A stretch of 64,000 nucleotides of DNA. It comes from Liolophura sinensis. Its lineage: Eukaryota; Mollusca; Polyplacophora; Chitonida; Chitonidae. The notes beneath the pieces were generated by a model, which searched no databases, was not told the DNA's origin, and worked only from the letters and a program-made list of their open reading frames with translations. This document shows positions 1 through 64,000 of this stretch, in pieces. The stretch lies in contig NC_088295.1 of NCBI RefSeq assembly GCF_032854445.1, positions 92,249,805 to 92,313,804 of the forward strand. Reading direction: 5' to 3'. Position 1 is the first letter of the stretch. Each line of letters starts with the position of its first letter. A program made the translations under genes and the position numbers.

Positions 1-2780
1 TCTGAATAAAGGAAGGGATTGATATGGGATAAATGTGGATTTCTGTATAAAGAAGAGGATTGATATGACATGGGTGTGGAATTCTGTATAAAGAAGGGGA
101 ATGATATGGGATAAATGTGGATTTCTGTATAAAGGGGACTGATATGGAATGAATGTGGATTTCTGTATAAAGAAGGGGGCTGATATGGGATGGGTGTGGA
201 TTTCTGTAAAAAGAAGGGGATTGATATGGGATAAATGTGGATTTCTGTATAAAGGGAACTGATATGGGATGGGTGTGGGTTTCTGTATAAAGAAGGGGAT
301 TGATATGGCATGGGTGTGGAATTCTGTATACAGAAGGGGATTGATATGGGATGAATGTGGATTTCTGTATAAAGAAGAGGATTGATATGGGATAAATGTG
401 GATTTCTGTATAAAGAAGGGGACTGATATGGGATGAATGTGGATTTCTGTACAAAGAAGGGGACTTACATGGCATGGATGTGGAATTCTGTAGAAAGGAG
501 GGGACTGATATGGGATAAATGTGGATTTCTGTATAAAGAAGGGGACTGATATGGCATAGATGTGGAATTCTGTATAAAGAAGGAGATTGATATGGGACGA
601 ATGTGGATTTCTGTATAAAGAAGGGGACTGATATGGGATGAATGTGGATTTCTGTACAAAGAAGGGGACTGATATGGGATGGATGTGGATTTCTGTACAA
701 TGAAGGGGATTGATATGGGATAAATGTTGATTTCTGTATAAAGAAGGGAACTGATATGGGATGAATGTGGATTTCTGTATAAAAGAAGCGAATTGATATG
801 GGATAAATGTGGATTTCTGTATAAAGAAGGGGACTGATATGGGATGAATGTGGATTTCTGTACAAAGAAGGGGACTTACATGGCATGGATGTGGAATTCT
901 GTAGAAAGGAGGGGACTGATATGGGATAAATGTGGATTTCTGTATAAAGAAGGGGAATGATATGGCATAGATGTGGAATTCTGTATAAAGAAGGAGATTG
1001 ATATGGGACGAATGTGGATTTCTGTATAAAGAAGGGGACTGATATGGGATGAATGTGGATTTCTGTACAAAGAAGGGGACTTACATGGCATGGATGTGGA
1101 ATTCTGTAGAAAGGAGGGGACTGATATGGGATAAATGTGGATTTCTGTATAAAGAAGGGGACTGATATGGCATAGATGTGGAATTCTGTATAAAGAAGGA
1201 GATTGATATGGGACGAATGTGGATTTCTGTACAAAGAAGGGGACTTACATGGCATGGATGTGGATTTCTGTACAAAGAAGGGGACTGATATGGGATGGAT
1301 GTGGATTTCTGTACAAAGAAGGGGATTGATATGGGATAAATGTGGATTTCTGTATAAAGAAGGGGACTGATATGGGATGAATGTGGATTTCTGTATAAAG
1401 AGGGGATTGATATGGGATAAATGTGGATTTCTGTATAAAGAAGGGGACTGATATGGGATGAATGTGGATTTCTGTATAAAGAAGGGGACTGATATGGAAT
1501 GAATGTGGATTTCTGTACAAAGAAGGGGACTGATATGGGATGGATGTGGATTTCTGTACAAAGAAGGGGACTGATATGGGATGGATGTGGATTTCTGTAC
1601 AAAGAAGGGGACTTACATGGCATGGATGTGGAATTCTGTAGAAAGGAGGGGACTGATATGGGATAAATGTGGATTTCTGTATAAAGAAGGGGACTGATAT
1701 GGCATAGATGTGGAATTCTGTATAAAGAAGGAGATTGATATGGGACGAATGTGGATTTCTGTATAAAGAAGGGGACTGATATGGGATGAATGTGGATTTC
1801 TGTACAAAGAAGGGGACTGATATGGGATGGATGTGGATTTCTGTACAATGAAGGGGATTGATATGGGATAAATGTGGATTTCTGTATAAAGAAGGGGACT
1901 GATATGGGATGAATGTGGATTTCTGTATAAAAGAAGCGGATTGATATGGGATAAATGTGGATTTCTGTATAAAGAAGGGGACTGATATGGGATGAATGTG
2001 GATTTCTGTACAAAGAAGGGGACTTACATGGCATGGATGTGGAATTCTGTAGAAAGGAGGGGACTGATATGGGATAAATGTGGATTTCTGTATAAAGAAG
2101 GGGAATGATATGGCATAGATGTGGAATTCTGTATAAAGAAGGAGATTGATATGGGACGAATGTGGATTTCTGTATAAAGAAGGGGACTGATATGGGATGA
2201 ATGTGGATTTCTGTACAAAGAAGGGGACTTACATGGCATGGATGTGGAATTCTGTAGAAAGGAGGGGACTGATATGGGATAAATGTGGATTTCTGTATAA
2301 AGAAGGGGACTGATATGGCATAGATGTGGAATTCTGTATAAAGAAGGAGATTGATATGGGACGAATGTGGATTTCTGTACAAAGAAGGGGACTTACATGG
2401 CATGAATGTGGATTTCTGTACAAAGAAGGGGACTGATATGGGATGGATGTGGATTTCTGTACAAAGAAGGGGATTGATATGGGATAAATGTGGATTTCTG
2501 TATAAAGAAGGGGACTGATATGGGATGAATGTGGATTTCTGTATAAAGAAGGGAACTGATATGGAATGAATGTGGATTTCTGTACAAAGAAGGGGACTGA
2601 TATGGGATGGATGTGGATTTCCGTACAAAGAAGGGGACTGATATGGGATGGATGTGGATTTCTGTACAAAGAAGGGGACTTACATGGCATGGACGTGGAA
2701 TTCTGTATAAAGGAGAGGATTGATATGGGATAAATGTGGATTTCTGTACAAAGAAGGGGACTGATATAGGATAGAAGTGG
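1..2780. repeat. 41-bp minisatellite with 1148-bp higher-order repeat (intron of the lectin gene)
   Basis: About 68 copies of a 41-bp unit, typically GAAGGGGACTGATATGGGAT followed by GGATGTGGATTTCTGTACAAA. Blocks recur almost unchanged 1148 bp apart (465-659 with 1613-1807; 876-1091 with 2024-2239), which is 28 units. The last unit runs into the exon 19 donor at 2787. Long stop-free frames across it are a by-product of the unit and do not look like genes. Confidence 0.93.
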
Positions 2781-2786
2781 ACTTAC

Positions 2787-3311: not shown

Positions 3312-6300
3312 CTGCCAAAATAAACCACATCACACAATCACAAATACACATCAATTAAAACACTATATCAGTTTCACAGAATCAAAGCAAATGCAATAAT
3401 ATTTATATAATAAATATTATTTCCAACAAAGTTTTGCCTTGAACTTGTCCAAACACAAAAACTGTTGAATATAAGTATGTACATGTATGGAGACTTGTGG
3501 CATGACGCATGATTACCTTCGCAGGTGGGGTAATCATCAACAGCACACCTGTATGGGTTCAGGCCCTTCACAGTGTAACCTGGGTTACACTGAACCTGCA
3601 CAGAGTCCCCTGCTGCATACGTTCTCTCTCTGTTTAGGGTAATACCATTCTCCAGCTCAGGGATGTTACATAGTCTCTCTGTAACACAAGTACACCTCAG
3701 GGTCAAATCAGGTCAAATTGGGGTGAAATTAGGTCACAGTGAGTTCAAATAATATGGTGTCTAAGATTCAACGTCATTTGAATATTCTATACTGGATATA
3801 CCCTATTTTCTCGACATAAACAAATTACAGCTATGTGACATGATGAAAATTTCAAGATCAGCTCTACTGAACACAAAAAACACACATGTACTGTTCTCCA
3901 TGTAAGGCTATGGCACATCATTACAGATTGACAGGAGAGGATAGGCGATGAACTAAGCTTACTTTGACAGGTGGGAGGAGAGCCTGACCAGGTGTTGCCC
4001 TGACCACAGACCAGGCGGGCCAGTCCCACCACTTCATACCCAGCCTCACACCTGATCTCCACCACGGTGCTGAACGTGGTGCCAGAGCCGTACAATATGA
4101 AGTAGCGACCATTAGTGATGGGAGGCAGGACAGGACAACTTGTAGCTGAGGAGAAAAGAATCAAAAACAAATTTACTCAAAGAAACACAGTGTTGGAAAC
4201 AGAACATTTATACAAATAATATTGTCAGATTACAGAAGAAACAACTACTGACAAGATGTATATGTGGCCAGAAATGTCATGTACAGCTGGATACCAGGCA
4301 CCACAGTGATGACAGATAGGTGATGAGATCTGAATCTATCAGGTCATATCTGACCACAAACACGGACTCACCTGTACAGCTGGGAGGAGAGCTCCAGGTA
4401 CCATCACTCTGGCAGGTAATCAGACTTGAGCCTATAAGGTTATATCCAGGAGCGCACTGATATCTCACATTGTTCCCAGAGTAAAGGCCTCCATTAAAGA
4501 TGATAAAACCATTAGTCACAGCCGGAATTTGCCCACAGAACACAGCTGAAATCAAACAAAACTACATCTTTAGTTAAACTGAACATAAACTCAGCCACTA
4601 AGGCTGAATTAATTAATAAAGTAGTATTCCAGAAATGTTCTAAAACTATTGAAAATATCAACACTGCTAATCAACAAAATAAATAGCGAATGATCGTCAG
4701 TACCTAGCCACTCATTTGGTGATGCCATTTTGCCATGTTATAGCTATCTAGAGTTACATCACAAAACCTAGGAGCTTTCCCACACCATCGGTATTAAACA
4801 AGATGTCAATGAGAAAATACAAACAGAAACACCTAATTCCCAACCAAAGAGTATCACTTCTGTCCCGATTTCAAAGGGCTAAGGCTTCTTTTAACCTGGC
4901 GCTTGGTCTGGGCACAAGCATCGTTTTTTAGCAGCCCTGCTTGTCCTCGACTTTGACCAGCATGGTGGCCTAGCTGGTTGTACCATCATCAAGGAATTTA
5001 CTGAACATAGCAGGACCTTCTCATTTATAACAGACTCTTTCGTGCAGATTGCATATTTTCGTAATAAATCTGACTTTCCTACGGAAAAATAAGGCAAAGT
5101 CACAATATTTTCCTTCAAGCAATGACTCTCCCAAGGCAGTTTTCTCAGCCTCAGAAATTACTGCAGTCTCCTGCCCAACATGTACGCATTGTTACACGGG
5201 GCAGCCGTTCTCTCAGTTCCCTGCTTATACAAGTTTTGGTCCAAAATGCATCAGTTTAACACTTAAATTAAGAGCAAAATCCAATTTATTGCATTAATAT
5301 CTGTTTACCCACTATAAGAAACCACACTGACAATCGAGAGCTTATGTTTATAAGGGCTTCTACAACGTGGCTACTCGGGGTAAATTGTCCGTCAATACCA
5401 TATCCTCAATACTGAACTTCGTCTTCTCAGCTTTCAAAACTTAATAGAAATTTTTACTTATTTTTCTGTGATAATTGTGTCCTATATCCCTTTTTCTATG
5501 TATAAATAGTGGCAGACTTTATGTTCATTTTAAATTAAAATGAATAGAAAGGTCCATGACTTCATTACAGGCTAATCAATCATGGTCACTTATGAAAACC
5601 AGAAGTAGACTGAAAAATGGACATCAACTTACGGGCACACTCTGGAAAGGGAGTCAAGTCCCAGGTGCCTCCCAGAAGACAGGTGACGGTCACACTGGGC
5701 TGACCACGGTACTTTGCCTCTGTGAACACTGAGCCAGAAGAGCACTGCACTGTAATCACCACACCAAACCCAGCACCACCATTAGCAGGGGAGACCTGGA
5801 TGTTCTTAGATCCTGTATCTATCTGGGGACAATCTGTAAACCAAGTCAAAATTAATGGTCAATACTTCTTTAAGAGCATAAAACACACCTATTATCAGTG
5901 TATGCAATGTGGCATTTCCCAGCAGGACTTCACATACATTTTATCAGCACAGTTTCCAGCAGGATCGTTATATGCAGTTAATCAGCACAGTCTCCAGCTA
6001 GTTCTTTATACACACTTTATCAGAGCAGTTTCCAGCAGTTTCTTCACACACGTTTTATCAGAGCAATTTCCAGCAGGTTATTTGTACACAGTTAATCAGA
6101 CCAGTTTCCAGCAGGTTCTTTATACACACTTTATAAGAGCAGTTCCAGCAGGTTCTTCATATACAGTTTATCACACCAGTTTCCAGTAGATTCTTTACAT
6201 ACAGTTTAGCATAGCAGTTTCTAGCAGGTTCTTTATATACAGTTCATCAGAACAGTTTCCAGCTGAATTTTCATCATATTGGACATTAAACAATTGTTAC

Positions 6301-20182: not shown

Positions 20183-20199
20183 TGAGCAGATCCATGATT

Positions 20200-23520: not shown

Positions 23521-23559
23521 ATGCTTTGATTTGATTTATTATTCCCGCCCTTCACCTTA

Positions 23560-24428: not shown

Positions 24429-24429
24429 T

Positions 24430-34183: not shown

Positions 34184-37100
34184 TCAGCTCTCTGGCACCT
34201 CAAACACTCCACAAGCCATGTTAGCAGGTAGGGCTCGATCTGTCAGGCACAGAAAATACAGCTTACCACACAGAATACATGCTATGCTAGTGTTGCTATG
34301 AACGAAGTTGGAAAATCTTTAAGTTACTTTTTAAATTAAATTTGTGGAAATGGACACAGTCTGACAATATTTAGTTCATTATACCAGAGAACAGAGAAAC
34401 TGTTGATAGAATATCCTACTGTGGTATCTAGTATGTGTGTCCTCTTGTGTGTCCTGATCTGTGCTGCTGACAGCTCCTGTACACATACACATATCCAAAC
34501 AAAATAAATACCTTTCTGCCATACTGGTAGAGAAATTAGGAAACAGGAGATAATTATTACCAATTTGTTTTGGGTAGGGCAGATTGAGTTCTCCCATCAC
34601 TCTGATAAATTCCTCTCTCTTCCTCCTCAATCGAAGATTACACCGTTTTTCCTCTTCCACCGTTGTCATTGTCTGGCCTGTCAAAAAGTCATTGACTGAC
34701 TGTCAGACTATGGGTTTGATATCCAGATATTTGATGTGTTTGTTTGTTTAGGTTTCAACATCAACTGAAACATTGCTTCTCAAATCACAACATCTCATTG
34801 TAGCTTAATAGCTAGTCATGATGAAGACATGCCACCTTACTGGAATGCCATCCCATGATGACGACATGTCACTTTACTGGAATGCCATGTCATGACGAAG
34901 ACATGTCACCTCACTGGAGTGCCATGTCATAATGAAGACATGCCACCTCACTGGAATGCCATGTCATGATGACGACATGTCACTTCACTGGAATGCCATG
35001 TCATGACGAAGACATGCCACCTTACTGGAATGCCATCTCATGATGAAGACATGTCACCTCACTGGAGTGCCATGTCATAATGAAGACATGTCACTGCACT
35101 GGAATGCCATGTCATAATGAAGACATGTCACCGCACTGGAATGCCATGTCATAATGAAGACATGTCACCTCACTGGAATGCCATGTCATGATGACGACAT
35201 GTCACTTCACTGGAATGCCATGTCATGACGAAGACATGCCACCTTACTGGAATGCCATCTCATGATGAAGACATGTCATCTCACTGGAATGCCATGTCAT
35301 GACGAAGACATGCCACCTTACTGGAATGCCATCTCATGATGAAGACATATCACCTCACTGGAATGCCATGTCATGATGAAGACATGCCACCCCACCGGAA
35401 TGCCATGTCATGATGCCATTCTCAGTCACAGTGTATAGACAGCTTTGCACTCTGTCAATCCTCTCCTACTGGATGCCTCTTGTGAGAGATAAGAGGGCCC
35501 TTTAAGCGCTACCACTTACAATGAGGACACTCTAACCCAATCCCTTATAATACAAGTATAAAATTTTTACAGTGTTCCTAGATTTAATACAAGACTAACT
35601 TAAAATATTGTCTTGGAATGAAAAACAACATGCCATTTGGTGGCATAAAGAGATGCACTGCCAACAAATAAAGAGAGGAGTAGGCTACATGTCTGAACTA
35701 TTGAAAAGTTCCATGCTGCATGGAGAGGTACAACTACCTTTATCAGCCAAATGGTGAGTCTTATATGTGACATCATGAGCAGGTACTTCTATTCACCTTC
35801 GTAATAATGAACAGGTGTTGATATTTACCTGTGTACTGAAAAGCTCCAACCTTTTCAACCTGTGCAGCCATGAACAGGTGTTAATACCTACCCATGTAAT
35901 CATGAGCAGGTGTTTCTACTTACCTATGTAAGGTGCTGGAACCTACCTGTGTAACCAGGAACATGTATTGATACCTCCCTACCTCATTGGCAAGTCTTGA
36001 TAGTTACCTGAATAATCATAAACAGGTGTTGATACTTACTTGTATAATCATGATCAGGCGTTGACAGTTAACTGATTAATCATGAGCATGGGTTTTCACT
36101 TACCTGTGTAATCATGGGCGGGAAACAACACAAAGTTATCTGGCAAAGTGAAAATCTTCGAGTGAACCGAGTCATACAAGGTACCAGCATTTCCTGAAAG
36201 AAGAAATATTTTCATGAAAGTATTTCCTGTCAAAGTGTCCTTACATTTATATATGAAGAGTGAAACATGGTACAGTGTTATCATGCTGGGAAAGTTTACC
36301 TATGAAGAATAATTCATCTAGAGAGAGACAGTCACGTAACTAACCTTGCTGAAAGTCTGTGCGGCCACATCCTCGCACAAGGAGAGCATCACCTGTGAAT
36401 GCCATTCCCTTCTCATGCCAGACGTATGTCATACAACCTGGAAATATACAGTGTTGCTCATGTCATACACACGGATGAGACAGACACTGGGATGGAAACT
36501 AAACAACAAACTCATAATTTTTATGTTTTCAGCATTTCTGAATTAAATTCTGTACATCTTCCTGAAGTATTTTTTGCATAAATAAAGAGGAATTTCTCCA
36601 AAAAAGAGGAAAAATCTCCTGCCTGCATACAACTTGGAAATATACAGTTTTACTCATGTCATACAGCCTGGAAACATACAGTGTAAACTATACCGCTCAT
36701 GTCATACAGCCTAGAAACACACAGCGTAAGCTACACTGCTCATGTTAACAGCCTGGAAACACACAGTGTAAACTACACTGCTCATGTCATACAGCCTGGA
36801 AACACACAGTGTAAGCTACACTGCTCATGTCATACAGTCTGGAAAAACATAGTGTAAGCTACACTGCTCATGTCATACAGTCTGGAAATACACAGTGTTG
36901 CTCATGTCATACAGGGTGGAAAAATACAGTGTTGCTCATGTCATACAGCCTGGAAACACACAATGTAAACTACACTGCTCATGTCATACAGCCTGGAAAC
37001 ACACAGTGTTGCTCATGTCATACAGGTCGGAAAAATACAGTGTTGCTCATGTCATACAGCCTGGAAACACACAATGTAAACTACACTGCTCATGTCATAC

Positions 37101-40100
37101 AGCCTGGAAATACACAGTGTTGCTCATGTCATACAGGTCGGAAAAATACAGTGTTGCTCATGTCATACAGCCTAGAAACACACAATGTAAACTACACTGC
37201 TCATGTCATACAGCCTGGAAACACACAGTGTAAGCTACACTGCTCGTGTCATACAGTCTGGAAACACACAGTGTAAGCTACACTCCTCATGTCATACAGC
37301 CTGGAAATACACAGTGTTGCTCATGTCATACAGGGTGGAAAAATACAGTGTTGCTCATGTCATACAGCCTGGAAACACACAGTGTAAGCTACACTGCTCA
37401 TGTCATACAGCCTGGAAATATACAGTGTTGCTCATGTCATACAGCCAGGAAAAACACTGTGTAAGCTACACTGCTCATGTCATACAGCCTGGAAATATAC
37501 AGTGTTGCTATGTCATACAGCCAGGAAATACACAGTGCTGCTCATGTTATACAACCTGGAAATATACAGTGTTGCTCACGTCATACAGCCTGGAAACACA
37601 CAATATAAAGTACACTGCTCATGTTATACAGTCTGGAAACACACAGTGTAAACTACACTGCTCATGTCATACAACCTGGAAAAACACCGTGTAAGCTGCA
37701 CTGCTCATGTCATACAGCCTGGGAATATACAGTGCTGCTCATGTCATACAGCCAGGAAATACAAAGTGCTGCTCATGTTATACAGTCTGGAAACACACAG
37801 TGTAAACTACACTGCTCATGTCATACAACCTGGAAAAACACAGTGTAAGCTACACTGCTCATGTCATACAGCCTGGAAATACAGTGCTGCTCATGTCATA
37901 CAGCCAGGAAATACACAGTGCTGCTCATGTTATACAACCTGGAAATATACAGTGTAAACTACACTGCTCATGTTATACAGTCTGGAAACACACAAATGTA
38001 AGCTACACTGCTCATGTCATACAGTCTGGAAAAACACTGTGTAAGCTACACTGCTCATGTTATACAGCTTGGAATCACACAGTGTAAGATACATTGCTCA
38101 TGTCATATAGCCTGGAAACACACAGTGTAAGCTACACTGCTCAAGTCATACAGTCTGGAAATATACAGTGTTGCTATGTCATACAGCCTGGAAACACACA
38201 GTGTAAGCTACACTGTTCATGTTAAACAGCTTGGAATCACAAAGTGTAAGATACATTGCTCATGTCATATAGCCTGGAAACACACAGTGTAAGCTACACT
38301 GCTCATGTTATACAGCTTGGAATCACACAGTGTAAGATACATTGCTCATGTCATATAGCCTGGAAACACACAGTGTAAGCTACACTGCTCATGTCATACA
38401 ACCTGAAAATATAGTGTTGCTCATGTCATGCAGTCTGGAAACACACAGTGTAAGCGACATTGCTCATGTCATACAGTCTGGAAATATACAGTGTTGCTCA
38501 CGTCATACAACCTGGAAAAACATAGTGTAAGCTACACTGCTCATGTTATACTGCATGGAAACACACAGTGTAGGCTACACTGCTCATGTCATACAACCTG
38601 GAAAAACACAGTGTAAGCTACACTGTTCATGTTAAACAGCTTGGAATCACAAAGTGTAAGATACATTGCTCATGTCATATAGCCTGGAAACACACAGTGT
38701 AAGCTACACTGCTCATGTTATACAGCTTGGAATCACACAGTGTAAGATACATTGCTCATGTCATATAGCCTGGAAACACACAGTGTAAGCTACACTGCTC
38801 ATGTCATACAACCTGAAAATATAGTGTTGCTCATGTCATGCAGTCTGGAAACACACAGTGTAAGCGACATTGCTCATGTCATACAGTCTGGAAATATACA
38901 GTGTTGCTCACGTCATACAACCTGGAAAAACATAGTGTAAGCTACACTGCTCATGTTATACTGCATGGAAACACACAGTGTAGGCTACACTGCTCATGTC
39001 ATACAACCTGGAAAAACACAGTGTAAGCTACACTGCTCATGTTATACTGCCCGGAAACACACAGTGTAAGCTACACTGCTCATGTCATACAACCTGGAAA
39101 AACACTGTGTAAGCTACACTGCTCATGTTATACTGCCCGGAAACACACAGTGTAAGCTGCACTGCTCATCTTATACAGCTTGGAAATCCTTTGTTACTCA
39201 TACCACACAGCCTGGAAATACTTTGTTGATCATGTTACACAGCCTGGAAATACACAGTGTAAGCTACACTTCACATGTCACATAACTTTGAAATACACAG
39301 TTTATCATGTCATACAGCCTAGAAATACACTGTTCCTCTGGGCTCTGTTTCCTCCCACCATAATGCTGGTCGCCGTCGCGTAAGTGAAATATTCTAGAAT
39401 AAATCAAATAAATAAATAAATAAATACACAGTGTAAGCTACACTGTTCATGTCATACAGAATGGAAACACACACTGCTCACTTTACAGAGCCTAGAAATG
39501 CACAGTGTAAGCCACACTTCTCGTGTTACACAGTCTGGAAATACAAGCTATATTTCTCATGTTATACATAAACCCTTTGCTGTACCATCACCACTGGTAT
39601 GCCTGAGAGTGCCTCAACTCTCTGGTGGAAACTGTCCACATGTAATGTACCATCACATTATAAACTCTGCTGTACCACTACCACTGGTATGTCTGGGTGT
39701 GTCTTGGCACCCTGGCTGAAACTGACAACATGTAATGTACCATCACATTATAAACTCTGCTGTACCACTACCACTGGTATGTCTGGGTGTGTCTTGGCAC
39801 CCTGGCTGAAACTGTCCACATGTAATATACCATCACATTATACACTCCGCTGTAACATTACCACTGGTATGTCTGGGTGTGTCTTCGCACCCTAGCTAAA
39901 ACTGTCCACATGTAATGTACCATCACATTATACACTCTGCTGTACCATTACCACTGGTAGTGTGCCCCTGAGACATTATACCATCATCTATACCTTTGAC
40001 ACTGGTATGTCTGGGTGTGCCCTGGTATATAATACCATCAGCTGTGCGATTACCAATGGTACGACCAGATGTGCCCTGGTACATTATACCATCAGCTGTA

Positions 40101-43100
40101 CTATTACCACTGGTATGCCTGAGTGTGCCCAGGTACATTATACCATCAGTTGTACTGTTACAACTGGCATGTCTGAGAGTGCCCTGGTACATTATACCAT
40201 CAACTGTATCATTACCAATGGTATGTCCAGATGTGCCCTGGTACATTATACCATCAGCTGTACTATTACCACTGGTATGCCTGAGTGTGCCAAGGTACAT
40301 TATGCCATCAGTTGTACTGTTACAACTGGCATGTCTGAGTGTGCCCTGGTACATTATACCATCAACTGTACCATTACCAATGGTATGTCCCGATGTGCCC
40401 TGGTATATTATACCATCAGCTATACCACTACCACTGGTATGTCTGGGTGTGTCTTGGCACCCTAGCTAAAACTGTCCGTATGTAATGTACCATTACATTA
40501 TACACTCCGCTGTACCACTACAACTGGTATGTCTGGGTGTGCCCCAGACATTATACCATCAGCTGTGCAATTACCAATGGTATGTCCAGATGTGCCCTGG
40601 CACATTATACCATCAGCTGTACTATTACCACTGGTATGCCTGATAGTGTCCAGGTACATTATACCATCAGTTGTACCGTTACAACTGGCATGTCTGAGTG
40701 TGCCCCAGTACATAATACCACCAGCTGTACCATTACCAATGGTATGTCCCGATGTGCCCCGGTACATTATACCATCAGCTGTACCTTTAACCCTGGTATG
40801 TCTGGGTGTGCCCTGAGAAATTATACCATAAACTGTACCATTACCACTGGCATGTCTGAGTGTGCCTGGGTACATTATACCATCAGCTGTACCTTTAACC
40901 CTGGTATGTCTGGGTGTGCCCTGCTACATTATACCATCAGCTGTAGCAATACCAATGGTATGTCGAGATGTGCCCTGGTACATTGTACCATCAGCTGTAC
41001 TATTAACACTGGAATGTCTAAGTGTGCCCTGGTACATTATACCATCAACTGTACCATTACCAATGGTATTTCTGGGTGTGCCCCAGTACATTATACTATC
41101 AGCTGTACCATCACCATGTAATAGTATATCTGAGTGTGCCTGGGTACCTTATACCATCAGCTGTACTAGTACCAATGGTACTAGTGCCCTGGTACATTAT
41201 ACAATTACCACTGGTATGGCCAGGTGTGAGCTGCTACATTATACCATCATGTATACCATTACCATTTGTATGTCCTGGAGTGCTGCGACACTCTATCTGA
41301 AACTGTCCAAACTTAATGTGGTCCCCATCATTAATTTTCTTGTCTGACTTGGCACCGCTCACTTCTGCTATAACACTTTGACACTTGGGCAATCTTCTTT
41401 TGATTTCACCTGACCCGGTCACATGATCGGCATGAACATGTGTGTTTACTGCCAAAAAAAGTAAAGAGGCACATCAGCATGTTCCACAGAATATAATGAT
41501 AAGAGGTTCCTTTCTATCATACACTCACAGACAGGACAGGATTTCCTTACGCCAAAAAAATGCTACATACCGGTATTTGTTTTAGTTTACATGTGTCAGT
41601 AAGGTTCAATAAAACCTAGAATATAAATTGTTAACAGTTAACAGTGTCTACAACCACATCGGGCCACGAAATCTAGGTGGTCGGAGTAACCAAAAAATGG
41701 GTTACAGGTTTTAAGCCTTGAATAACCCTGATCGTTCGGTTCTCCTTAACTCTTTGTTCCAGGGTACAAATTGGCATAACTGATTTATCAGTGTGCACAA
41801 TAACACTCCAGGTAACTGACGTGCAAACGTTTGTTTCATTCGTGCCAAATTTCGTAGCCTGAATGTGTTTGATTTTTATAGAGGAAGTATGTCACTGTTA
41901 CCCTTTGTACTCAATGGAACTATGTGCCATCACTACATAGGTTATCTGATGTTTAACCCCACTCCAGTATGACCTTATCTCAGTATTACCTGCATAGATG
42001 AGATTGAGCTGGAGGTCCTTAACTATCTGCACGTCCCGGTCCACCAACTCTAGCACAGGGTCAATCAGGATTGCCTCCCTTGATGCACTATCAGCCAGCA
42101 AATAGGTGTAGGTATACGACTTAAAATCAAACAGCTGAATGAGATAAAAAAACACACAAAACATAACTACTGATCCCTGGTATCAGTGAAGTGTGCCAAA
42201 TCCCTGGCATACATTCAATATTTAACCATGCTTTTTGGGGTGGGGGTGGGGGGGGGGGGGGGGGTGAATGTGGCTGGATGAATTTTGACAGCCAGGAATT
42301 GTAGTATTACATGATAAGACTTATGAAAAATTGACAAGTGATTCTATAAACATACAATAATATGCATGATTATTGTGTTTGTGCATACACCTACTTGCAA
42401 TAATTATATACTGCATATTGATCCTGTGGGACATTAGGCCATATAACACCATCATGATTTCAAGTACATGTGTACTGGTCCGCATGGTACCTTTCACTGA
42501 AACAACTAAACCAGCCAAAACTGGCCACAGCTATATAGATATGTAACTGGTACAGCTGCCTGCTGCTAGATTATTGTACCACTCACACAAAGGTCACCGA
42601 GTTTCACCACATACAACACACACTTTAACATATTAGGCTCCATTTGGAACATGTCTTGGGACGTTGGTGATCTCTGAAGCTGGACCCTCACCTATACTTG
42701 GCTGGGACAGGCATTCAGCTTGCCTTTGAATGAACCCCTCTGCATACTGTTTAGGAGAGGATTACATCAGAATCAAACTTACTGTGCTGTAGGCCTACCC
42801 TTGAGCTGATTGTCTTATTACATCACTTCAGCTTGTCTACAACTGCAAATAATATCATTAAACTTTGCTCTATTTGGGCCTGTTTTTATGTTGAAACATA
42901 CTATATAGCTCCAAAGAGCTACCGGTACATTAAACTGTAAGGGGTACAAAGGCTGTCTAGCCAAAAGGTATGCAGTACGCATGGGGGCCTAAGCGTAATG
43001 CGTTCAGGATAACATACCTCCGCACATCTGTAACTTACACCACGAGCACGCTTACCTGACGAAACAAGTATTCTTTCGAGGAGAACGATGTTGACATATT

Positions 43101-45992: not shown

Positions 45993-46175
45993 TGGACTGC
46001 AATCTTCGTGCTACTTGTAGCACTTGGCTGTGAAAAGCTACATGTAACCAAGTTTTAATAGTGTGAATGGTTTTTACATGTATTACATGTTTATACCATA
46101 GGTTGTTGCCATAGTTACAATCAAGTTGAGTTGACTATAGCTGAATTGAACCACACCAAGTATTAACTGTCAGCA

Positions 46176-46410: not shown

Positions 46411-46799
46411 TGTTGGAGTTGCCTAGTCAGCAGCTCTCTGTCACACATATTCATATGTGAATAAATAAATGTAATATTGAGCATGTAAAAATGCTTGTTT
46501 TTTGTGTATGTCTTTTGTTGTTGTTGTTGTTTTATTTTCGTGTGTACAGACCACTAGAAGCTAACTGTCCCCCAAACAGTGGTAGCTTAGATAAATGATA
46601 AGGGATGGAAATGTTTACGGCCGCTCTGTACATCCTTTAGTTCTATGCTGACAGTGTGGTTAATAGGTGTAAGGATGGATCATGGTTTAAGTATATGAAC
46701 CAGCCTGGTTTCCTTCCTCCATATTAATGCCCACTGTCGCTGTATAAGGGAAATACTCCTGGGTACAGCACAAAACAGATAGAGAAATAATACATGTAG

Positions 46800-51000: not shown

Positions 51001-53501
51001 TACAGAGTCTAAAAGGAACTGATGATTTCCAGTGAAATGGATAAATGATATGAAATATTTTGCCACTGACAGTCAACACGTACTCTTCAAGTTCCGTGTA
51101 TTTCCTCTCATCAAGTAAATGTAATTATCTAATAGTTATGCCCAAAATACTCCTTCCACTGTACTTGTGCATTTCTGTTGTATCTGATTTGCTATGTCTG
51201 TCACCCTAATGTGTTGTTATCTGGCCGTTAGCTGTAGAGGGATCCACAGAGGCAACTGGGATGGATGGTGAGCAGCAAAACGAGGGAACAACAACCCCAA
51301 CACAGGACCAGCCAGCTCAAGGCCAGGGAAATACACCAGCACAAGGTATACATAGTGTAGGATTTATGCTCTTCCTGGAGGATAAGCTACTGTCAATCAG
51401 TCATCCCTCTGAAAGATAATAGCAAACCCTTGGCTTGTACAATGACATTGATTTTATCAGACTTTCACCGTTATAACATAAAAGACATTGGAGTAGGGTA
51501 TTTCTCCTTAACACAATGACACTTTCCGAGTGTCTTGAATACACAGTTTTGTTGTGATGTGTATAGCTTGTCTAATGGATCTTACCTATGTAACGTAGTA
51601 CTTAGTATTGGGTAAATGTATTGATGGTAACTGTATTTTACAATGTAGATCTAGTATGAAAGTAATGAAAACCTTTCATTTGTTTTTTGCTTGTTATCTG
51701 CCTTTGTCTGTTGCTTCATGAACATGTTGGCAACTTAACCAAGCAGGTTACTTGTGTTTCCTATGAATGTTATTGGAGCCTTCTTGAGAGTGATTTACAT
51801 GTACATGTACCTGTGATGATTTAATACAGTGTCAAATGAGGGATCAAACACAGACAACCCGGCAGGGAGTTTGGTTGACATGGGAACAGGTACCTATAGA
51901 TCAGACCTGTGGTAGATTCCTAATGTAGAACTTTATGGTGGTAGTTTCTGTAGGTGCTCAGATCTCCTACATATAGATCAGCTCATCTTTGTCAGCCTTT
52001 CTGATGTCCATTATTTCTATCAGTCTGCTGTTCTATGTGGCTCTGTACTATCCTTGCTCATGCTATTCTCTGTCTACATGAAATTGGGTGCCACTTATCA
52101 CATGGTTGTGTCAACATTATGTGCTTCTCTTGAGAAGGGTGGTTTGAGAGAGAATTAAGAGTAAAGTAATAGACAATAGTAACAGTAACATTTGCTCTTT
52201 ATGCTATGATACACTTTTTAACATGATGTTCTAAATGTTAATATACATGTAGACTTGTGTTCAGAACAGATCTCTGTATTAAGATGAAAAATGGTAAGTT
52301 CTGATCAAAAATTCATCATTCACACAAATAAACTAGTCTAGTGCTGTTGAAAATATGCATTCCCATTCTATTATGTTGTTTTTTGTTTGTTTTTTTATCC
52401 AGCATTTATCATATTTAACCAAACTGAAAGATCAACTTTGTTTGGCTCTGCAGGAACTGACAAGGTAGACAAGAAAGATGAGGAAAAGTCTGAAGAAACT
52501 GAGCATGCTGGGCCTGAAGAAGCAGAGGGACAAGGTAAAGACAATGAAATTGTACCTGAAACCGAGAAGCCCCCGGAGGAGCAGCCTCCAAGTGAGACAG
52601 GAGAGCAGGCTGATACTGTGGAGCAGGGTCAGGCTGTTGTGAATGATTGGGGAGATGAGGCTAAGGAAGAAGGGACCACTGATCAAGGTGAAACAGGTGA
52701 GGCAATATTCCTTATTTAGATGTATGCCATATGTAATGTATATCACATCTACATACATTCTCATCAAGCATTTTCATCACTGTATGGCTGGAACGTGGAC
52801 AAAATGTATATCCCATGGAGAGAACATTCCTTTTCTTCTGAGTCAATTTTCAGGCTATTTTCAAGTGGTAGTTGTGATGAAGGAGAAGTATTATTTTGTC
52901 AAACTGAGATCTTTTACTAATGTGGCTGCATTTAGTGCCAATTTGCCCCTTATGCTTTTAAGCTCAGTATCATTTGTTACATGGGTGTACATTTATCTTC
53001 AGAAAACATTGTTGAAAGTCATGGAGAGAAACCGACAGAAGAGTCCACTCAGGAGAAGGGAGAAACTGAAAAGCAAACTGAAAAGAGTGAAGAGGCTGAG
53101 AAAGAAGCTGAAGGGAAGGGAGAAGCTGACAAACAAGAGGTTGACAAAGAAGCTGAACAGAATAAAGAGGTTGATAAACAAGCTGAACAGGAGGGAGAAG
53201 CTGACAATCAAGCTGAACCAAATGGAGAAACTGACAAACCAGCTGAGACATCTGGAGAGGGGCCAGTCACCTCAGGACAGGAAGAGGAGGGGCAAGCTGA
53301 AGAAGGTGTTCAGGGAGATGGGGAGCGTGGGGAAGGGAGTGGCTCTCAGAAGGGAGACGAGGACTTGAATGCCTGGGGAGAGAGTAGGGAAGATCTGGTA
53401 GAGACCATGGACCCGTTATTCTACTACAATGCAGAGGAGCATGTGTCAGGTGCACAGGTACAGGAGGAGTCTGGCCTGCCTCTTGACATGCTCACACTCA
53501 A
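48005..53501 (+). CDS. CFAP44: CFAP44 exons 1-6: acidic, low-complexity N-terminal region
   Basis: About 550 residues ahead of the WD repeats, unusually long and acidic. Exon 1 gives [20 protein letters not shown]. Exon 2 (49291-49956) has [20 protein letters not shown]. Exons 5-6 are rich in E, K and Q, with about seven repeats of an 11-13-residue unit like EADKQAEQNGE. A WGE motif occurs three times ([31 protein letters not shown]). All five internal introns but the last are phase 1, so exons 2-5 could be skipped without a frameshift. Exon 6 ends LPLDMLTL, leading into the conserved HSYGYDC. The exon assignment rests on phase and splice sites; sequence conservation here is weak. Confidence 0.75.
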
Positions 53502-56500
53502 GTATCCTTTTTATGTGACATATACTACCACTTACACACAGTTTTGTTTCAGAGGTACTGCATGATCATTACTATTCTATCTCATAGAAAGTTGAATGTA
53601 CGCAGTTACATGGGTTTATCAGTGCAAATCGCAAGAAGTGAGTAACACAGCTGAGGCAAGAGATGTATGCACAGACTGAATGCTTGTCAGTTGATCTGGG
53701 AAAACATTTATTGTTTAGAATATTCTTTCTCATGATAATTTGTGTAACTAATTATAGCCATATTAAGATTAGACAAGATTATGGTTTTGAAAGTGAGCAT
53801 TTGTCTTTAACCACTGACCAGCCATTCGTACGGTTATGACTGCACCAAACGTGCTAATCTCCACATCCTGGATGAGACGACGGTGTGCTTTGTAGCAGGT
53901 AACCTGGTGGAGTTACTGAACCTGACCAGCAAGGAGCAGACATACCTCCGCAGTACAAGTGGAGGAGGTGTTGGAGCTATTGCTGTGAGTATACCTCATG
54001 AGTACAAGTGTGGGAGGTGTTGGGACTATTGCTGTGAGTACCTCATGGGCACATATTGGAGAGGTGTTGAGGCTATTGCTGTGAGTATATTTTACAAGTG
54101 TGGGAGGTGTTGGGACTATTGCTGTGAGTACCTCATGGGCACATATTGGAGAGGTGTTGAAGCTATTGCTGTGAATATATCTTACAAGTGTGGGAGGTGT
54201 TGGGACTATTGCTGTGAGTACCTCATGGGCACATATTGGAGAGGTGTTGAAGCTACTGCTGTGAATATATCTTACAAGTGTGGGAGGTGTTGGGACTATT
54301 GCTGTGAGTACCTCATGGGCACATATTGGAGAGGTGTTGAAGCTATTGCTGTGAATATATCTTACAAGTGTGGGAGGTGTTGGAACTATTGCTGTGAGTA
54401 CCTCATGGGCACATATTGGAGAGGTGTTGAAGCTATTGCTGTGAGTATATTTTACAAGTGTGGGAGGTGTTGGGACTATTGCTGTGAGTACCTCATGGGC
54501 ACATATTGGAGAGGTGTTGAAGCTATTGCTGTGAGTATATTTTACAAGTGTGGGAGGTGTTGGGACTATTGCTGTGTGTACCTCATGGGCACATATTGGA
54601 GAGGTGTTGAGGCTATTGCTGTGAATATATCTTACAAGTATGGGAGGTGTTGGGACTATTGCTGCGAGTACCTCATGGGCACATATTGGAGAGGTGTTGA
54701 TACTATTGCTGTGAATATATCTTACAAGTGTGGGAGATGTTGGGACTATTGCTGTGACTACCTCATGGGCACAAATGGGGGAGGTGTTGGGACTATTGCT
54801 GTGAGTACCTCATGGGCACATATTGGAGAGGTGTTGAGGCTATTGCTGTGAGTATATTTTACAAGTGTGGGAGGTGTTGGGACTATTGCTGTGAGTACCT
54901 CATGGGCACATATTGGAGAGGTGTTGAAGCTATTGCTGTGAATATATCTTACAAGTGTGGGAGGTGTTGGGACTATTGCTGTGAGTACCTCATGGGCACA
55001 TATTGGAGAGGTGTTGAAGCTACTGCTGTGAATATATCTTACAAGTGTGGGAGGTGTTGGGACTATTGCTGTGAGTACCTCATGGGCACATATTGGAGAG
55101 GTGTTGAAGCTATTGCTGTGAATATATCTTACAAGTGTGGGAGGTGTTGGAACTATTGCTGTGAGTACCTCATGGGCACATATTGGAGAGGTGTTGAAGC
55201 TATTGCTGTGAGTATATTTTACAAGTGTGGGAGGTGTTGGGACTATTGCTGTGAGTACCTCATGGGCACATATTGGAGAGGTGTTGAAGCTATTGCTGTG
55301 AGTATATTTTACAAGTGTGGGAGGTGTTGGGACTATTGCTGTGTGTACCTCATGGGCACATATTGGAGAGGTGTTGAGGCTATTGCTGTGAATATATCTT
55401 ACAAGTATGGGAGGTGTTGGGAGTATTGCTGCGAGTACCTCATGGGCACATATTGGAGAGGTGTTGAGACTATTGCTGTGAATATATCTTACAAGTGTGG
55501 GAGATGTTGGGACTATTGCTGTGACTACCTCATGGGCACAAATGGGGGAGGTGTTGGGACTGTTGCTGTGAGTACCTCATGGGCACAAATGGGAGAGGTG
55601 TTGGGGCTATTGCTGTGAGTACCTCATGGGCACATATTGGAGAGGTGTTGAAGCTATTGCTGTGAATATATCTTACAAGTGTGGGAGGTGTTGGGACTAT
55701 TGCTGTGAGTACCTCATGGGCACATATTGGAGAGGTGTTGAAGCTACTGCTGTGAATATATCTTACAAGTGTGGGAGGTGTTGGGACTATTGCTGTGAGT
55801 ACCTCATGGGCACATATTGGAGAGGTGTTGAAGCTATTGCTGTGAATATATCTTACAAGTGTGGGAGGTGTTGGAACTATTGCTGTGAGTACCTCATGGG
55901 CACATATTGGAGAGGTGTTGAAGCTATTGCTGTGAGTATATTTTACAAGTGTGGGAGGTGTTGGGACTATTGCTGTGAGTACCTCATGGGTACATATTGG
56001 AGAGGTGTTGAAGCTATTGCTGTGAGTATATTTTACAAGTGTGGGAGGTGTTGGGACTATTGCTGTGAGTACCTCATGGGCACATATTGGAGAGGTGTTG
56101 AGGCTATTGCTGTGAATATATCTTACAAGTATGGGAGGTGTTGGGACTATTGCTGCGAGTACCTCATGGGCACATATTGGAGAGGTGTTGATACTATTGC
56201 TGTGAATATATCTTACAAGTGTGGGAGATGTTGGGACTATTGCTGTGACTACCTCATGGGCACAAATGGGGGAGGTGTTGGGACTGTTGCTGTGAGTACC
56301 TCATGGGCACAAATGGGAGAGGTGTTGGGGCTATTGCTGCGAGTATATCTTACAAGTGTGGGAGGTGTTGGTGCTGTTGCTGTGAGTACCTCAGGGGCAC
56401 AAGTGTGGGAGGTGTTGGGGCTGCTGCTGTGAGTACCTCAGGGGGACAAGTCGGGGATGTGGTGGGGCTGTTGCTGTGAGTACCCCATTGGTGCAAGTTG

Positions 56501-59500
56501 GTTAGGTGTTGGGGCTATTGCTGTGAGTACCTCATGGGCACAAATGGGTGAGGCATTGAGGCTATTGCTGTGAGTATATCTTACAAGTGTGGGAGGTGTT
56601 GGGGCTATTGCTGTGAGTACCTCAGGGGCACAAATGGGTGAGGCATTGAGGCTATTGCTGTGAGTATATCTTACAAGTGTGGGATATGTTGGTGCTGTTG
56701 CTGTGAGTACCTCATGGGCACATATTGGAGAGGTGTTGAAGCTATTGCTGTGAATATATCTTACAAGTGTGGGAGGTGTTGGGGCTATTGCTGTGAGTAC
56801 CTCAGGGGCACAAATGGGTGAGGCATTGAGGCTATTGCTGTGAGTATATCTTACAAGTGAGGGAGGTGTTGGGGCTGCTGCTGTGAGTACCTCAGGAGGA
56901 CAAGTCGGGGATGTGGTGGGGCTGTTGCTGTGAGTACCCCATTGGTGCAAGTTGGTTAGGTGTTGGGGCTACTGCTGTGAGTACCTCAGGGGCACAAGTG
57001 TGGGAGGTGTTGGGGCTGTTGCTGTGAGTACCTTAGGGGGACAAGTGGGGGATGTGGTGGGGCTGTTGTTGTGAGTACCCCATTGGTGCAAGTTGGTTAG
57101 GTGTTGGGGCTATTGCTGTGAGTACCTCATGGGCACAAATGGGTGAGGTATTGAGGCTATTGCTGTGAGTATATCTTACAAATGTGGGAGGTGTTGGTGC
57201 TGTTGCTGTGAGTACCTCAGGGGCACAAGTGTGGGAGGCATTGGGGCTGTTGCTGTGAGTACCTTAGGGGGACAAGTGGGGGATGTGGTGGGGCTGTTGC
57301 TGTGAGTACCCCATTGGTGCAAGTTGGTTAGGTGTTGGGGCTATTGCTGTGAGTACCTCATGGGCACAAATGGGTGAGGTATTGAGGCTATTGCTGTGAG
57401 TATATCTTACAAATGTGGGAGGTGTTGGTGCTGTTGCTGTGAGTATCTCAGGAGTACAGGTAGGGGAGGCATTGGGGCTGTTGCTAAATATTAAAAAGAA
57501 TAAATAAACAGTGATACCACATGTTGACCACAAACTTAATTTTTTTACAGGTACATCCAAGCAGAAAATTCTTTGCTGTAGCAGAGAAAGGGAAAGTCCC
57601 TAATATAAACATATATGAGTACCCATCTCTGAAGTTGCACCGCATACTGAGAGGAGGAACAGAGCAGTGTTATAATTATGTGGACTTCAGGTAGGACACT
57701 AAATATTCTTTATTACTTTAACGTTTTATAGACACTTGACTGCAGATGGAACTAGTCTGTGTAAAGAAAATAAGAAAGATAATAGACTATCTGCAAGCAC
57801 AAGTGATAAGTAATCCAAGCCTATTAACTCTTGTCAGTCATGTCTTTTGAGTTGTAACCCAGTCTCTGTGTGTGTTTGCAGCCCTGATGGAGAACTGCTG
57901 GCCTCCCAGGGAGGGGAGTCAGACTACATGTTAACAGTGTGGAGATGGAGACAGGAGAAGATTGTGCTGCGCTCCAAGGCCTTCTCCCAGGAGGTGTTCA
58001 GGGCAACCTTTTCCACAGAGCTTGAAGGACAGCTGACCACAGCAGGCACCAGCCATATCAAGTGTGTACCTCAAAGCTTAACTTGATTCTCCAAAACTCC
58101 ATTGAAGCAAAACATATACATGTATGATCTACTGCGATCAAATCTGAGTAGAGGATCTTATGCAGTGGTGGAAAGCCTAGCTTTGGATGACGTCAAAAAG
58201 ACGTTAAGATTGTCTGATGATTAGTAAGAAAGTACCCATTAAAAACAATTCAGTGACATTGTCCTTTTCAGCAAAATATGGTAGTAATGAGTCTCAAGAA
58301 TAGCTGTTAGGTATTCTGTAGGTTTATTTCCCGTATTTGTATCAATTTAGCTGACATGAGTGGGCCTGTCTGAGAATTATGTGACTTTCATTTTATTTGT
58401 TAACAGATTTTGGAAGATGGCTGACACATTTACAGGTTTGAAGCTACAAGGTCAGCTGGGGAAGTTTGGTCGCACAGAGATCTCTGATATAGAGGGTTAC
58501 GTGGAGTTGCCTGATGGGAAGGTCTTGTCAGGCTGTGAGTGGGGGAATCTTCTGGTCTGGGATGGAGGGCTCATTAAGGTGGAGATCTCTCGTAAGGGAG
58601 GCAAATCCTGTCACCATGGCCCAGTCCAGCAGATCTTACTGGATGAAGGAGAGTTGATGACTGTCGGAGTGGATGGATTCATCAGAGTAGGTTCTCAATA
58701 ATTTATCAAGCATGTTGATGTTAATCTGAACACATGGCTTAAACCTTAGATGGGAATCACCAGCATTGTTCAAATCTACTGCTTTTTGTTTGTTATTGTT
58801 ATTACATTACTTGTATCAGACATACCTGATATGTTCAGGTATTAAAGAGACATGCTACCTGTCTATGACTTACTGATAGTTGAGTTCTATACAATGACAG
58901 TGTATTTGTTTTGTTTTTTCTAGGTGTGGGACTTTGAAACAATAGACACAGCTGAAGGTGTAGATGAAGTGGGTTTGTTTGAAATGGAACCAATGAATGA
59001 GCTGCAAGTGGAAATGGATGTCAAGCTTAAGTCCATCGTGAAGTCTGTGGACACAGAGAATGAGCCCACCATCTGGTACGCACAGGTAAGAGATGTAGTA
59101 GGTAGGGGAACAGTGCCGAGTTGTCTGCAGCCTTCAACTGTCAGTGCAAGGGTTGTGTTTAAACACTACACAGTCCTGATGATATTGAGAATGTGTTTGA
59201 ATGTTCTGAATTGCTAATCCTCTGACAGGTTTTACATGACATATATGTTGAGGTGAGTAAATAGACATGCGTGTCTGTTCACAGGATGCCAACGGTGGGA
59301 TTTGGAAGCTGGACTTATCATTTTCTCACACATCGCTGGCCCCAGAGAAGCTGATGACGTACCACGCAGGTCCGATCTGGAGTGCGGATACCTCACCAGT
59401 GAGCCACCTGGTGGCCACCACAGGACAGGATAGTAAGTCAGCTGATTGGATGGTTCAGATTCACAATGTCACGGGCCCTCCATTCTGAAAATGAGAAGCC

Positions 59501-62500: not shown

Positions 62501-63786
62501 CTGGTTATCTGTACGAGTGTAAGTTCTTGTCAGAAGAGGAGAAAGCCAGCATGAGAAAAGAGAATATAGACAAGCCCCTGAGGGCAGTGTCTGTCATAGA
62601 CTCCAATGATGTTCCTATCACACAGATCAAGTTCAGGTAAATACCACCCATCAGATCCCTTACTAACAACAAAATTTACATTATAACAAACTCTTTGTTT
62701 TCTGCCTTGTAAATTGGCAATCATACTGTGGTGTTGACTCTATCTTCTAGTTAGGAGTACAGCCTATTGTTTATGTAAAGCTTAATAATCTGTGTAATTT
62801 CAAAAACTAAATGGTTAGTACATGTACATCACAAACCAGTTAAATGTAATGGATGGATACCACATGCCCATTGTCCCAGCACATCCCATCACAGAGAGAA
62901 TGAACATTTGTAATCAATGTGTGGGACATCCAGCTGATCTATTAACAATAATGTAATGGATGGATACCAAATGCCCATTGTCCCAGCACATCCCATCACA
63001 GAGAGAATGAACATTTGTAATCAATGTGTGGGACATCCAGCTGATCTATTAACAATAATGTTGGTTAGAATTGGTCAAATGCCTGTCTTGATTGGTGTGT
63101 GGAAAGGTATCTGACAGGTGTGTCTGCCACTGGACACAGCGTAGGCTGAGGTGTGGTGAATTTTTCTCTAATGCTGGGATTCCACTGACGTGTGATTGTA
63201 TTTATCATTACTTGTCTGTTAGTTCTGAAAATGGGAATTACATCAATACCCAGGAGTGTTTCCACGGACTCAGCAGGAGTCTCTAGCATAAAACATGTCC
63301 CATTTTTCACATATCAGAAAAGGATTTAGTACTGGGATGGGTTGACAGATTATTTGAATCACAGTTGTCAACACATGGGCCATGGAAACGCTGTAACAAA
63401 TGCGTGAAGTAATCGCATGAAGTAACACAAACTCTTGTTTGTGGAATCACAGCCAAAAGCAAGATGAATATAACATATGTTGTACTCTTTTCTCTAACAG
63501 TTCTAAGGTGGATCAGGTGCTGATGGGCATGGAGAACGGTGCTGTGCGGATCCAGCAGATGGACCCTGAGTCCCAGGAGAAGGACCTGGGTCTGATGGGG
63601 CCCTACTGGATGCTGACCATCCACGACAACAACTACGGCCACATCACTCGTCTACTGACCAGTCACGATGACACCTACATCCTCACTGTTGGCAGAGATG
63701 GCAACTTCTTTGCCTTCAACATGATGGGACAGGAGGAGATAAAGGAGAGAGTGGCTGAGGCCAAGGCCAGACTTCCATCTGCCAGG
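48005..63786 (+). CDS. CFAP44: Cilia- and flagella-associated protein 44 (3' end outside window)
   Basis: Twenty exons give about 1319 residues in frame: 48005-48074, 49291-49956, 51232-51345, 51830-51889, 52454-52696, 53003-53501, 53822-53984, 57551-57690, 57882-58061, 58407-58686, 58924-59085, 59285-59432, 59669-59763, 60086-60289, 60409-60519, 60832-60984, 61245-61372, 62053-62159, 62488-62636, 63501-63786. CFAP44 (WDR52) pairs with CFAP43 in the tether that links the inner-arm dynein f head to the axonemal doublet; loss in humans causes sperm flagellar defects. Identity rests on [70 protein letters not shown] and [12 protein letters not shown]. The human protein is about 1850 residues, so the C-terminal coiled-coil part lies beyond 64000. 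Exon 17 contains a one-base frameshift. Confidence 0.94.
48583..48974 (+). mobile_element. Complete tRNA-derived SINE with target-site duplication (CFAP44 intron 1)
   Basis: The body (48597-48960) starts CCGGCCCGGATAGCACAGTT with a box A (TAGCACAGTTGG) and a weak box B (GGATCAATCC). It carries the core ACTTCCTCGCTTGGCGTTCA and ends GAGTACGACGTTAAACCCC with a (CACT)n tail. It is flanked by near-identical 14-bp repeats, TAGTAGCGATGAGA (48583-48596) and TAGTAGCAATGAAA (48961-48974), the expected target-site duplication. It resembles the V-SINE/RUDI-type elements of molluscs, a name given from memory. Confidence 0.85.
49957..51231. other. CFAP44 intron 2, nothing else seen
   Basis: About 1.3 kb, AT-rich with several ATGTATG and TACATGTA words. 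The open frame of exon 2 runs on into this intron for about 65 codons without conservation. Confidence 0.55.
53822..60984 (+). CDS. CFAP44: CFAP44 exons 7-16: WD40 propeller region
   Basis: About residues 550-1096. Beta-propeller blades are visible as [13 protein letters not shown]...[33 protein letters not shown]...[26 protein letters not shown]...[44 protein letters not shown] and [20 protein letters not shown]. Exon 7 ends in [11 protein letters not shown] with a GTGAGT donor that has seeded the intron 7 array. This is the best conserved part of the protein and the basis of the gene call. Confidence 0.92.
53985..57480. repeat. 90-bp minisatellite derived from the CFAP44 exon 7 donor (intron 7)
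   Basis: About 39 units of 90 bp, each two related ~45-bp halves: TGTGGGAGGTGTTGGGACTA, TTGCTGTGAGTACCTCATGG, GCACATATTGGAGAGGTGTT, GAAGCTATTGCTGTGAATAT, ATCTTACAAG. The exon edge GGAGGAGGTGTTGGAGCTAT TGCT|GTGAGTATAC is the founder. Higher-order blocks recur at about 724-767 bp (marker CTTACAAGTATGGG at 54631, 55398, 56122). The last 1 kb is more degenerate. Open frames of 270-320 codons inside it are by-products. Confidence 0.94.
61245..63786 (+). CDS. CFAP44: CFAP44 exons 17-20: charged linker and following beta region
   Basis: Exon 17 (61245-61372) encodes [17 protein letters not shown], then after a run of eight A the reading must shift by one base to continue [20 protein letters not shown]. 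As printed, the frame hits TGA at 61298. Downstream exons ([68 protein letters not shown]) are intact, and the phases match only if the run is seven A. Confidence 0.85.
62846..63060. repeat. 107-bp tandem duplication in CFAP44 intron 19
   Basis: Two almost identical copies beginning GTAATGGATGGATACCA at 62846 and 62953. The copies end ATCTATTAACAATAAT. Confidence 0.92.
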
Positions 63787-64000
63787 GTAAATACCTGCAA
63801 ATACTCAGCTCATTGTGCTGAGAAACCAGTAATTACCATAACCAGGGTTCCTTCTACCAACATGAAAACCTCCACTCTGCTCACTGTACTGAGAAACCAG
63901 TAAATACCATAACCAGGCTCCCTTCTACCAACATGAAAACCTCCACTCTGCTCACTGTACTGAGAAACCAGTAAATACCATAACCAGGCTCCCTTCTACC
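63787..64000. repeat. 71-bp tandem repeat starting at the CFAP44 exon 20 donor
   Basis: At least three copies (CTTCTACCAACATGAAAACC at 63851 and 63922; CTTCTACC at 63993) containing CTGAGAAACCAGTAAATACC. The array begins within a few bases of the donor at 63787 and runs off the window. Confidence 0.85.

Follow-up and report, generated by a model that had tools for sequence, protein, structure and literature searches.

Tandem arrays in the introns of two genes, ETHE1 and CFAP44, repeat the splice junctions that border them. We analysed one window of animal DNA, a single sequence of 64 kb, and found support for a tandem unit spanning the exon-intron boundary in 5 of 16 pairs of an array and a junction, four of them at donors and one at an acceptor. 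The units carry the exon edge, the splice site and the start of the intron in register, as the original prediction for this DNA had proposed, and donors and an acceptor are indeed both affected. We read the arrays as minisatellites of the mirage type, in which a short segment spanning the border has been duplicated in tandem and the copies lie on the intron side of the outermost site, and we put the probability of this reading at roughly 85%.

Gene models were built manually, guided by open frames, splice dinucleotides, and Pfam and PDB matches. The models follow GT..AG introns, and the five junctions named in the original prediction, at 2787, 36104, 36437, 41263 and 53984, are exact exon edges in the models. 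One exon edge without AG/GT (5' end at 43275) was excluded from the junction set. Three genes together provide 38 complete introns, 2 introns cut by the window and 80 junctions:

Minus strand: ETHE1, matching PDB 4chl with E 4.5e-86.
Plus strand: CFAP44, with a PDB CFAP44 match over the joined exons at E 2.6e-149.
Minus strand: a sushi/EGF gene, in which Pfam finds EGF, sushi, CUB and PAN domains as well as a lectin-C match that falls slightly short of the cut-off.

Tandem Repeats Finder (TRF) gave 71 rows; simple repeats and short rows were set aside and the remainder combined into 20 arrays. Nine of these are intronic in the modelled genes, ten lie outside gene models and one (53054-53258) is coding in CFAP44. 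The exons and arrays at the five supported junctions are as follows.

41263..41448, minus strand: ETHE1 exon with a 3' edge of up to 57 nt that recurs downstream together with the donor GTAATGG.
39578..41180, minus strand: ETHE1 donor-derived array with 54- and 90-nt units (TRF, hybrid null).
36653..39334, minus strand: ETHE1 acceptor-derived array with units of ~43 nt and a 410-nt higher-order repeat 95% alike (TRF).
36345..36437, minus strand: ETHE1 exon with 12 nt of its 5' edge belonging to the acceptor array.
36104..36193, minus strand: ETHE1 exon that ends at an amplified donor, CACAG before the border and GTAAGT after it.
35869..36116, minus strand: ETHE1 donor-derived array of 32-nt units, merged from two TRF rows.
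53822..53984, plus strand: CFAP44 exon whose last ~31-33 nt and donor GTGAGT recur downstream (hybrid null).
53985..57550, plus strand: CFAP44 intron of 3566 nt, 97% tandem array (TRF).
63501..63786, plus strand: CFAP44 exon whose last ~20 nt recur in the following array.
63803..64000, plus strand: CFAP44 array with a 71-nt unit, cut by the window end, which aligns with the 63786 junction.

The main evidence comes from a hybrid-null test of the 16 pairs formed by an intronic array and a junction of its own intron. Twenty intron bases were held fixed, because the intron side is array by definition and must not win the test, and the exon edge was swapped for 39 other exon edges of the same type or for 300 dinucleotide shuffles, at exon lengths of 20, 30 and 60 nt. 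At the 53984 and 41263 donors no control reached the observed score at any exon length (0/39 and 0/300 in both cases). None of the 39 swaps and 0-2 of the 300 shuffles were as good at the 36437 acceptor, and 0-1 swaps and 0-8 shuffles were as good at the 36104 donor. The fifth junction, the 63786 donor of CFAP44, was absent from the original prediction; here 0/39 swaps and 1-2/300 shuffles were as good, figures which, like the others, are uncorrected for 16 tests and which at this junction would turn marginal if corrected. The 2787 donor, which had been predicted, was not significant (2-4/39 swaps, 8-79/300 shuffles), so four of the five junctions first named stood and one did not. The other ten pairs were without support, the nearest being the 62636 donor (1-10/39 swaps, 23-110/300 shuffles). 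These ten are four supported arrays set against the far end of their own intron and both ends of three further arrays.

The evidence narrows when the register is left free. A stringent local alignment of the exon alone (+2/-3 scheme) is weak for short or diverged matches, hence the in-register test. By this measure 53984 and 36104 outscored all 78 other junctions and 300/300 shuffles, while 36437 was equalled or beaten by 1/78 junctions and 4/300 shuffles, 41263 by 2/78 and 5/300, 63786 by 6/79 and 25/300, and 2787 by 7/79 and 84/300. Against 500 mononucleotide shuffles of the exon alone, the number as good was 0 for 53984, 2 for 36104, 6 for 63786, 16 for 36437 and 150 for 2787; the 41263 exon scored 26 against a shuffle maximum of 16. 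The original prediction would have been undermined if the alignments vanished on masking simple sequence. When the 60-nt exon ends were searched by BLAST with dust on, own-intron matches survived for only 2 of 80, 41263 (E 1e-5 to 6e-5) and 53984 (1e-8 to 3e-8), with stray matches of other ends at E >= 0.002, and were lost for 36104, 36437 and 63786. These last three depend on exon matches of ~12-20 nt in register with the splice site. Two TRF rows run over the border into the exon, 53964-57450 and 35997-36116, the latter by 13 nt into the ETHE1 exon.

The strongest single case is the 41263 donor, where an ungapped alignment of 77 nt spans the junction with 57/77 positions identical; against one array copy, 40/57 exon bases and 17/20 intron bases agree. 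Across this array (39500-41240) GT is kept in 21 of 25 aligned copies. Five of 15 copies share 55-57 exon bases and the other ten share 20-44. Perhaps the longer unit came first and was shortened afterwards.

At the other end of the same intron, the best copy of the 36437 acceptor is identical at 41 of 42 positions, 30 in the intron and 12 in the exon. AG is kept in 40 of the 58 aligned copies of this array (36480-39560), and the copies resemble the exon less with distance, although weakly (|rho| 0.35, p 0.018, n=45). The 95% likeness of the 410-nt higher-order repeats is compatible with recent turnover. The array also holds an insertion:

39331..39421, strand not assigned: SINE-like fragment with an AAAT tail inside the acceptor-type array (sequence read directly).

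As this fragment lies within acceptor-type repeats, the acceptor array is probably older than the insertion. The fragment is flanked on both sides by AAATACAC (39323-39330 and 39422-39429), a word that also occurs in array units, and it is not certain that the pair is a target-site duplication.

The CFAP44 array in 53985..57550 is the most extensive. Its 90-nt unit contains two copies of the junction, 72 of the 77 aligned copies have GT, and their identity to the exon drops with distance from it (rho -0.60, n=77). Plus-strand frames through the array (53811-56429) are open for 286-346 codons, so some duplicate donors would be usable without an immediate stop codon. In the 36104 array (35700-36086) GT is present in 7 of 9 aligned copies. 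As with the other GT and AG counts, these vary with the score cut-off set for the alignment and come from non-independent copies. At 63786, 64 columns of exon and intron align with the 71-nt unit with one 4-nt gap. The copies that match the exon carry AT where the donor has GT, and two further fragments of the array match GTAAATACC, elsewhere in the unit and without exon bases.

The unproven junction, 2787, adjoins the following array:

1..2781, minus strand: 41-nt array next to the sushi/EGF donor at 2787, without a significant match on the exon side.

The best-scoring alignment pairs TATAC followed by GTAAGTCC with TATAC followed by AGAAATCC. The sequence GTAAGTCC also aligns in one register with a minority variant of the unit, which has 9 exact occurrences against 32 and 13 for two other variants.

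Sequence common to arrays and exon edges could also have arisen the other way, with the edges and their splice sites recruited from a pre-existing satellite. At 36104, 36437, 41263 and 53984, however, the residues encoded at the exon edge can be aligned, with no gap, to ETHE1 and CFAP44 chains of solved structure. This makes exonization very improbable and indicates that the exon sequence came first and was copied into the array. The direction rests on these four junctions; 63786 lies beyond the protein searched. We take the best ETHE1 and CFAP44 chains to be human, plant and mammalian, although the tables give molecule names only.

The arrays account for much of the length of their introns. 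The three longest of the 38 complete introns, of 4825, 3566 and 1426 nt against a median of 321.5 nt, all carry junction arrays, and arrays make up 89% of the 4825-nt ETHE1 intron, 97% of the 3566-nt CFAP44 intron and 59% of the 1426-nt ETHE1 intron. If a short segment spanning the border were duplicated in tandem, a second copy of the donor or acceptor would fall inside the intron. Provided that splicing kept to the outermost donor or acceptor, the message would be unchanged and the extra copies would be spliced out, making them nearly neutral. Repeated slippage or unequal exchange could then expand the array until the intron was kilobases long and held decaying duplicate splice sites.

The original prediction suggested that introns in this genome grow by such duplication. 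The three longest introns agree with this, but the origin does not hold for every intronic array of the window, since 3 of the 9 match neither adjacent junction in the hybrid null:

5912..6263, minus strand: intronic array of the sushi/EGF gene.
34815..35415, minus strand: second array of the ETHE1 34678-36103 intron.
62843..63061, plus strand: two-copy 107-nt repeat in a CFAP44 intron.

Several observations weigh against the mirage reading. In addition to these three arrays and the unproven 2787, support was found in only 5 of the 16 pairs, and 36104, 36437 and 63786 have short exon matches, which fall below significance when the exon is searched alone by BLAST. Within the 1426-nt ETHE1 intron only 35869-36116 is junction-derived, and the larger array is not. 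The copies of the ETHE1 donor array with the longest exon match are mostly far from the donor, with four of the five at the donor-distal end (39648-39918) and the fifth at 40488. Finally, the gene models were made by hand.

Intronic minisatellites may simply arise anywhere, and in short introns some would cross a junction without any tendency towards borders. This concerns the rate at which borders are involved and not the homology itself. Counting at least 8 nt on each side and units of 32-90 nt, a random tandem duplication in these introns would cross the border in 8% (32-nt unit) to 32% (90-nt unit) of cases, and the three arrays that match neither junction, with 2787 as a fourth unproven, fit such a picture. 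Five border-derived arrays out of nine is above this expectation (binomial P 0.006, 0.02 and 0.05 at p = 0.15, 0.20 and 0.25), although with only the four arrays of the original prediction the values become 0.03, 0.09 and 0.17. The excess is only moderate and comes from one window. Chance placement is a serious possibility, if the less probable one, and one window cannot decide whether borders are preferred in the genome as a whole.

A different kind of duplication would create the intron rather than lengthen it. If a coding segment with an internal AG-GT were duplicated in tandem, splicing could use a GT from one copy together with the AG of the following copy. The potato RdRp gene is reported as a case of intron gain by tandem genomic duplication (PMC4974935). 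The likeness to our case is a tandem duplication within a gene; the difference is that there the duplication gives rise to an intron. In the amphioxus globin paper mirages too are proposed as a source of new introns (PMC3087553), and the position of the long ETHE1 intron is suggestive. Human ETHE1 introns lie between c.375 and c.376 and between c.505 and c.506, as judged from the variants c.375+5G>A and c.505+1G>A (PMC8136189). The gene in our window shares the c.505 intron, is an uninterrupted exon at c.375, and has the intron of donor 41263 at the human-equivalent c.412, 37 nt downstream of human intron 3. For this numbering, 16 is added to the position in the 4chl chain; codon 154 is then D, as the variant c.462T>A, p.D154E demands. 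The difference between c.412 and c.375 could be an intron relocation in either lineage.

Intron gain of this kind would be expected to leave an intron start resembling the start of the downstream exon and an intron end resembling the end of the upstream exon. This signature was not seen among the 38 introns. For the ETHE1 41263 intron, 25 and 9 of 37 other exons scored equally well; for the CFAP44 intron 26 and 28 of 37 were as good, and for the ETHE1 34678-36103 intron 23 and 37 of 37. Nor is the first 200 nt of the ETHE1 donor array related to the acceptor array (score 10 against 9-12 in ten shuffles). Intron gain is therefore an unlikely explanation of these arrays.

The mirage reading leaves these introns with many spare splice sites, as the original prediction expected, and most aligned copies do keep GT or AG. 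The sites are many and mostly weak. On a matrix built from 35 other donors, which themselves range from 5.2 to 13.1, the authentic donors score 0.9 at 53984, 5.5 at 41263, 7.9 at 2787, 8.6 at 63786 and 13.1 at 36104. The 3566-nt CFAP44 intron contains 160 sites that equal or exceed its authentic donor and the long ETHE1 intron contains 9, together with 27 acceptor-like sites that equal or exceed its own acceptor. In the ETHE1 34678-36103 intron no site scores as high as the authentic donor, and 7 are at or above the median.

Such numbers raise the question of whether the arrays persist because they serve a function, perhaps as decoy splice sites that slow or regulate splicing. Weak donors adjoin the two largest donor arrays with support, and duplicates that match or exceed them are plentiful. 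However, no donor-like site in either of these introns reaches the median real donor, a level reached by 0.8 sites per kb in array-free introns, and the other junction arrays adjoin ordinary or strong donors (63786 and 36104), with the exon-matching copies at 63786 having no GT. The comparison uses a matrix of only 35 donors. A function of this kind is improbable, a shade more so than intron gain.

The arrays resemble amphioxus mirages closely. Mirages are tandem duplications of exon-intron boundaries, described in the amphioxus Adh gene, the globins BflGb6 and BflGb9, and, in the PGBD5 paper, troponin C and PGBD5 (PMC3087553, PMC3902484). The original prediction knew of no standard name for the pattern, but this one was already in use. 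In these accounts mirages are minisatellite-like, occur at the 5' and 3' ends of introns and in many copies keep AG/GT (PMC3087553, PMC3902484), with units of 10-72 bp in Adh3 and 150-160 bp in the globins (PMC3087553). Two further traits tied to mirages are splicing that stays regular and array lengths that are unstable between alleles or tissues. The arrays here likewise lie at 5' ends (36104, 41263, 53984, 63786) and at a 3' end (36437), many but not all of their copies keep GT or AG (72/77, 21/25 and 7/9; 40/58), and their units of 32, ~43, 54/90, 90 and 71 nt are in the reported range. They differ in having more copies (77, 58 and 25) than the 6 and 3 given for two BflGb6 haplotypes (PMC3087553), and in that both ends of one intron, in ETHE1, are amplified by separate arrays. 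By anatomy the arrays are mirages, a structural likeness read from sequence alone. We consider them a well-supported example of something already known but little studied: one of the five predicted junctions is unproven, and one has been added.

Repeat expansion alters gene structure in other systems too. Human segmental duplications contain internal tandem repeats, half of which lie within coding exons, and a repeat at a boundary can give rise to a new intron (PMC2812944), while the repeat-expansion introns of Cryptococcus are gained introns that copy other introns of the same gene (PMC2395259). The human set includes repeats at exon-intron boundaries, as here. Unlike in both cases, the edge of an existing intron is here repeated inside that same intron.

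The window holds other repeats and a fourth gene:

Plus strand: APC13 (Pfam E 1.4e-15), with zero modelled introns.

Just downstream of APC13, ten copies of a 106-nt unit with 96% matches (44918-45992) look young and touch no modelled junction. Gene models are lacking for the sushi gene upstream of 12.2 kb, around 12.2-34 kb and for 44.7-51 kb. Outside the modelled genes, adjoining arrays at 23022-24168, with unit lengths of 49 and 59 nt, share a core like TTATCTGC..TCAC..CAAGGTGTG, and a 45-nt array at 14035-14451 is donor-like on the minus strand (CCAGGTACCTG, GAGGTAAAC). The coding array at 53054-53258 is a degenerate 30-nt repeat inside a CFAP44 exon and encodes a Lys/Glu/Gln-rich stretch. 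SINE-like elements lie at about 48596-48965 and at 46170-46420, the latter with a 79% identical relative at 27406-27510. One such element has a tRNA-like head, on visual reading, and an ACTC tail; ARAGORN found no tRNA in the window, and an Rfam search of the window likewise returned nothing. Pattern scans of prokaryote and viral contigs gave 0 matches each. The tails of these elements are possibly molluscan.

Should the host not be a lancelet, and the SINE-like elements point to a possible mollusc, mirages would extend beyond the range of the cited reports, although we do not claim that mirages are unreported outside lancelets. Junction minisatellites might then be a general way for animal introns to reach kilobases, with either end amplified independently, and not a lancelet peculiarity, a proposal that we would hold at slightly short of even odds; the same process may have accompanied the 37-nt shift of the ETHE1 intron relative to human. 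The lengthening of introns is usually put down to transposons. Here duplicates of the intron's own splice junctions make up most of one ETHE1 intron and one CFAP44 intron, and part of a third. The cell must ignore dozens of duplicate splice sites, so that how the spliceosome picks the right one becomes a testable question, as does junction duplication as a measurable source of intron growth or relocation.

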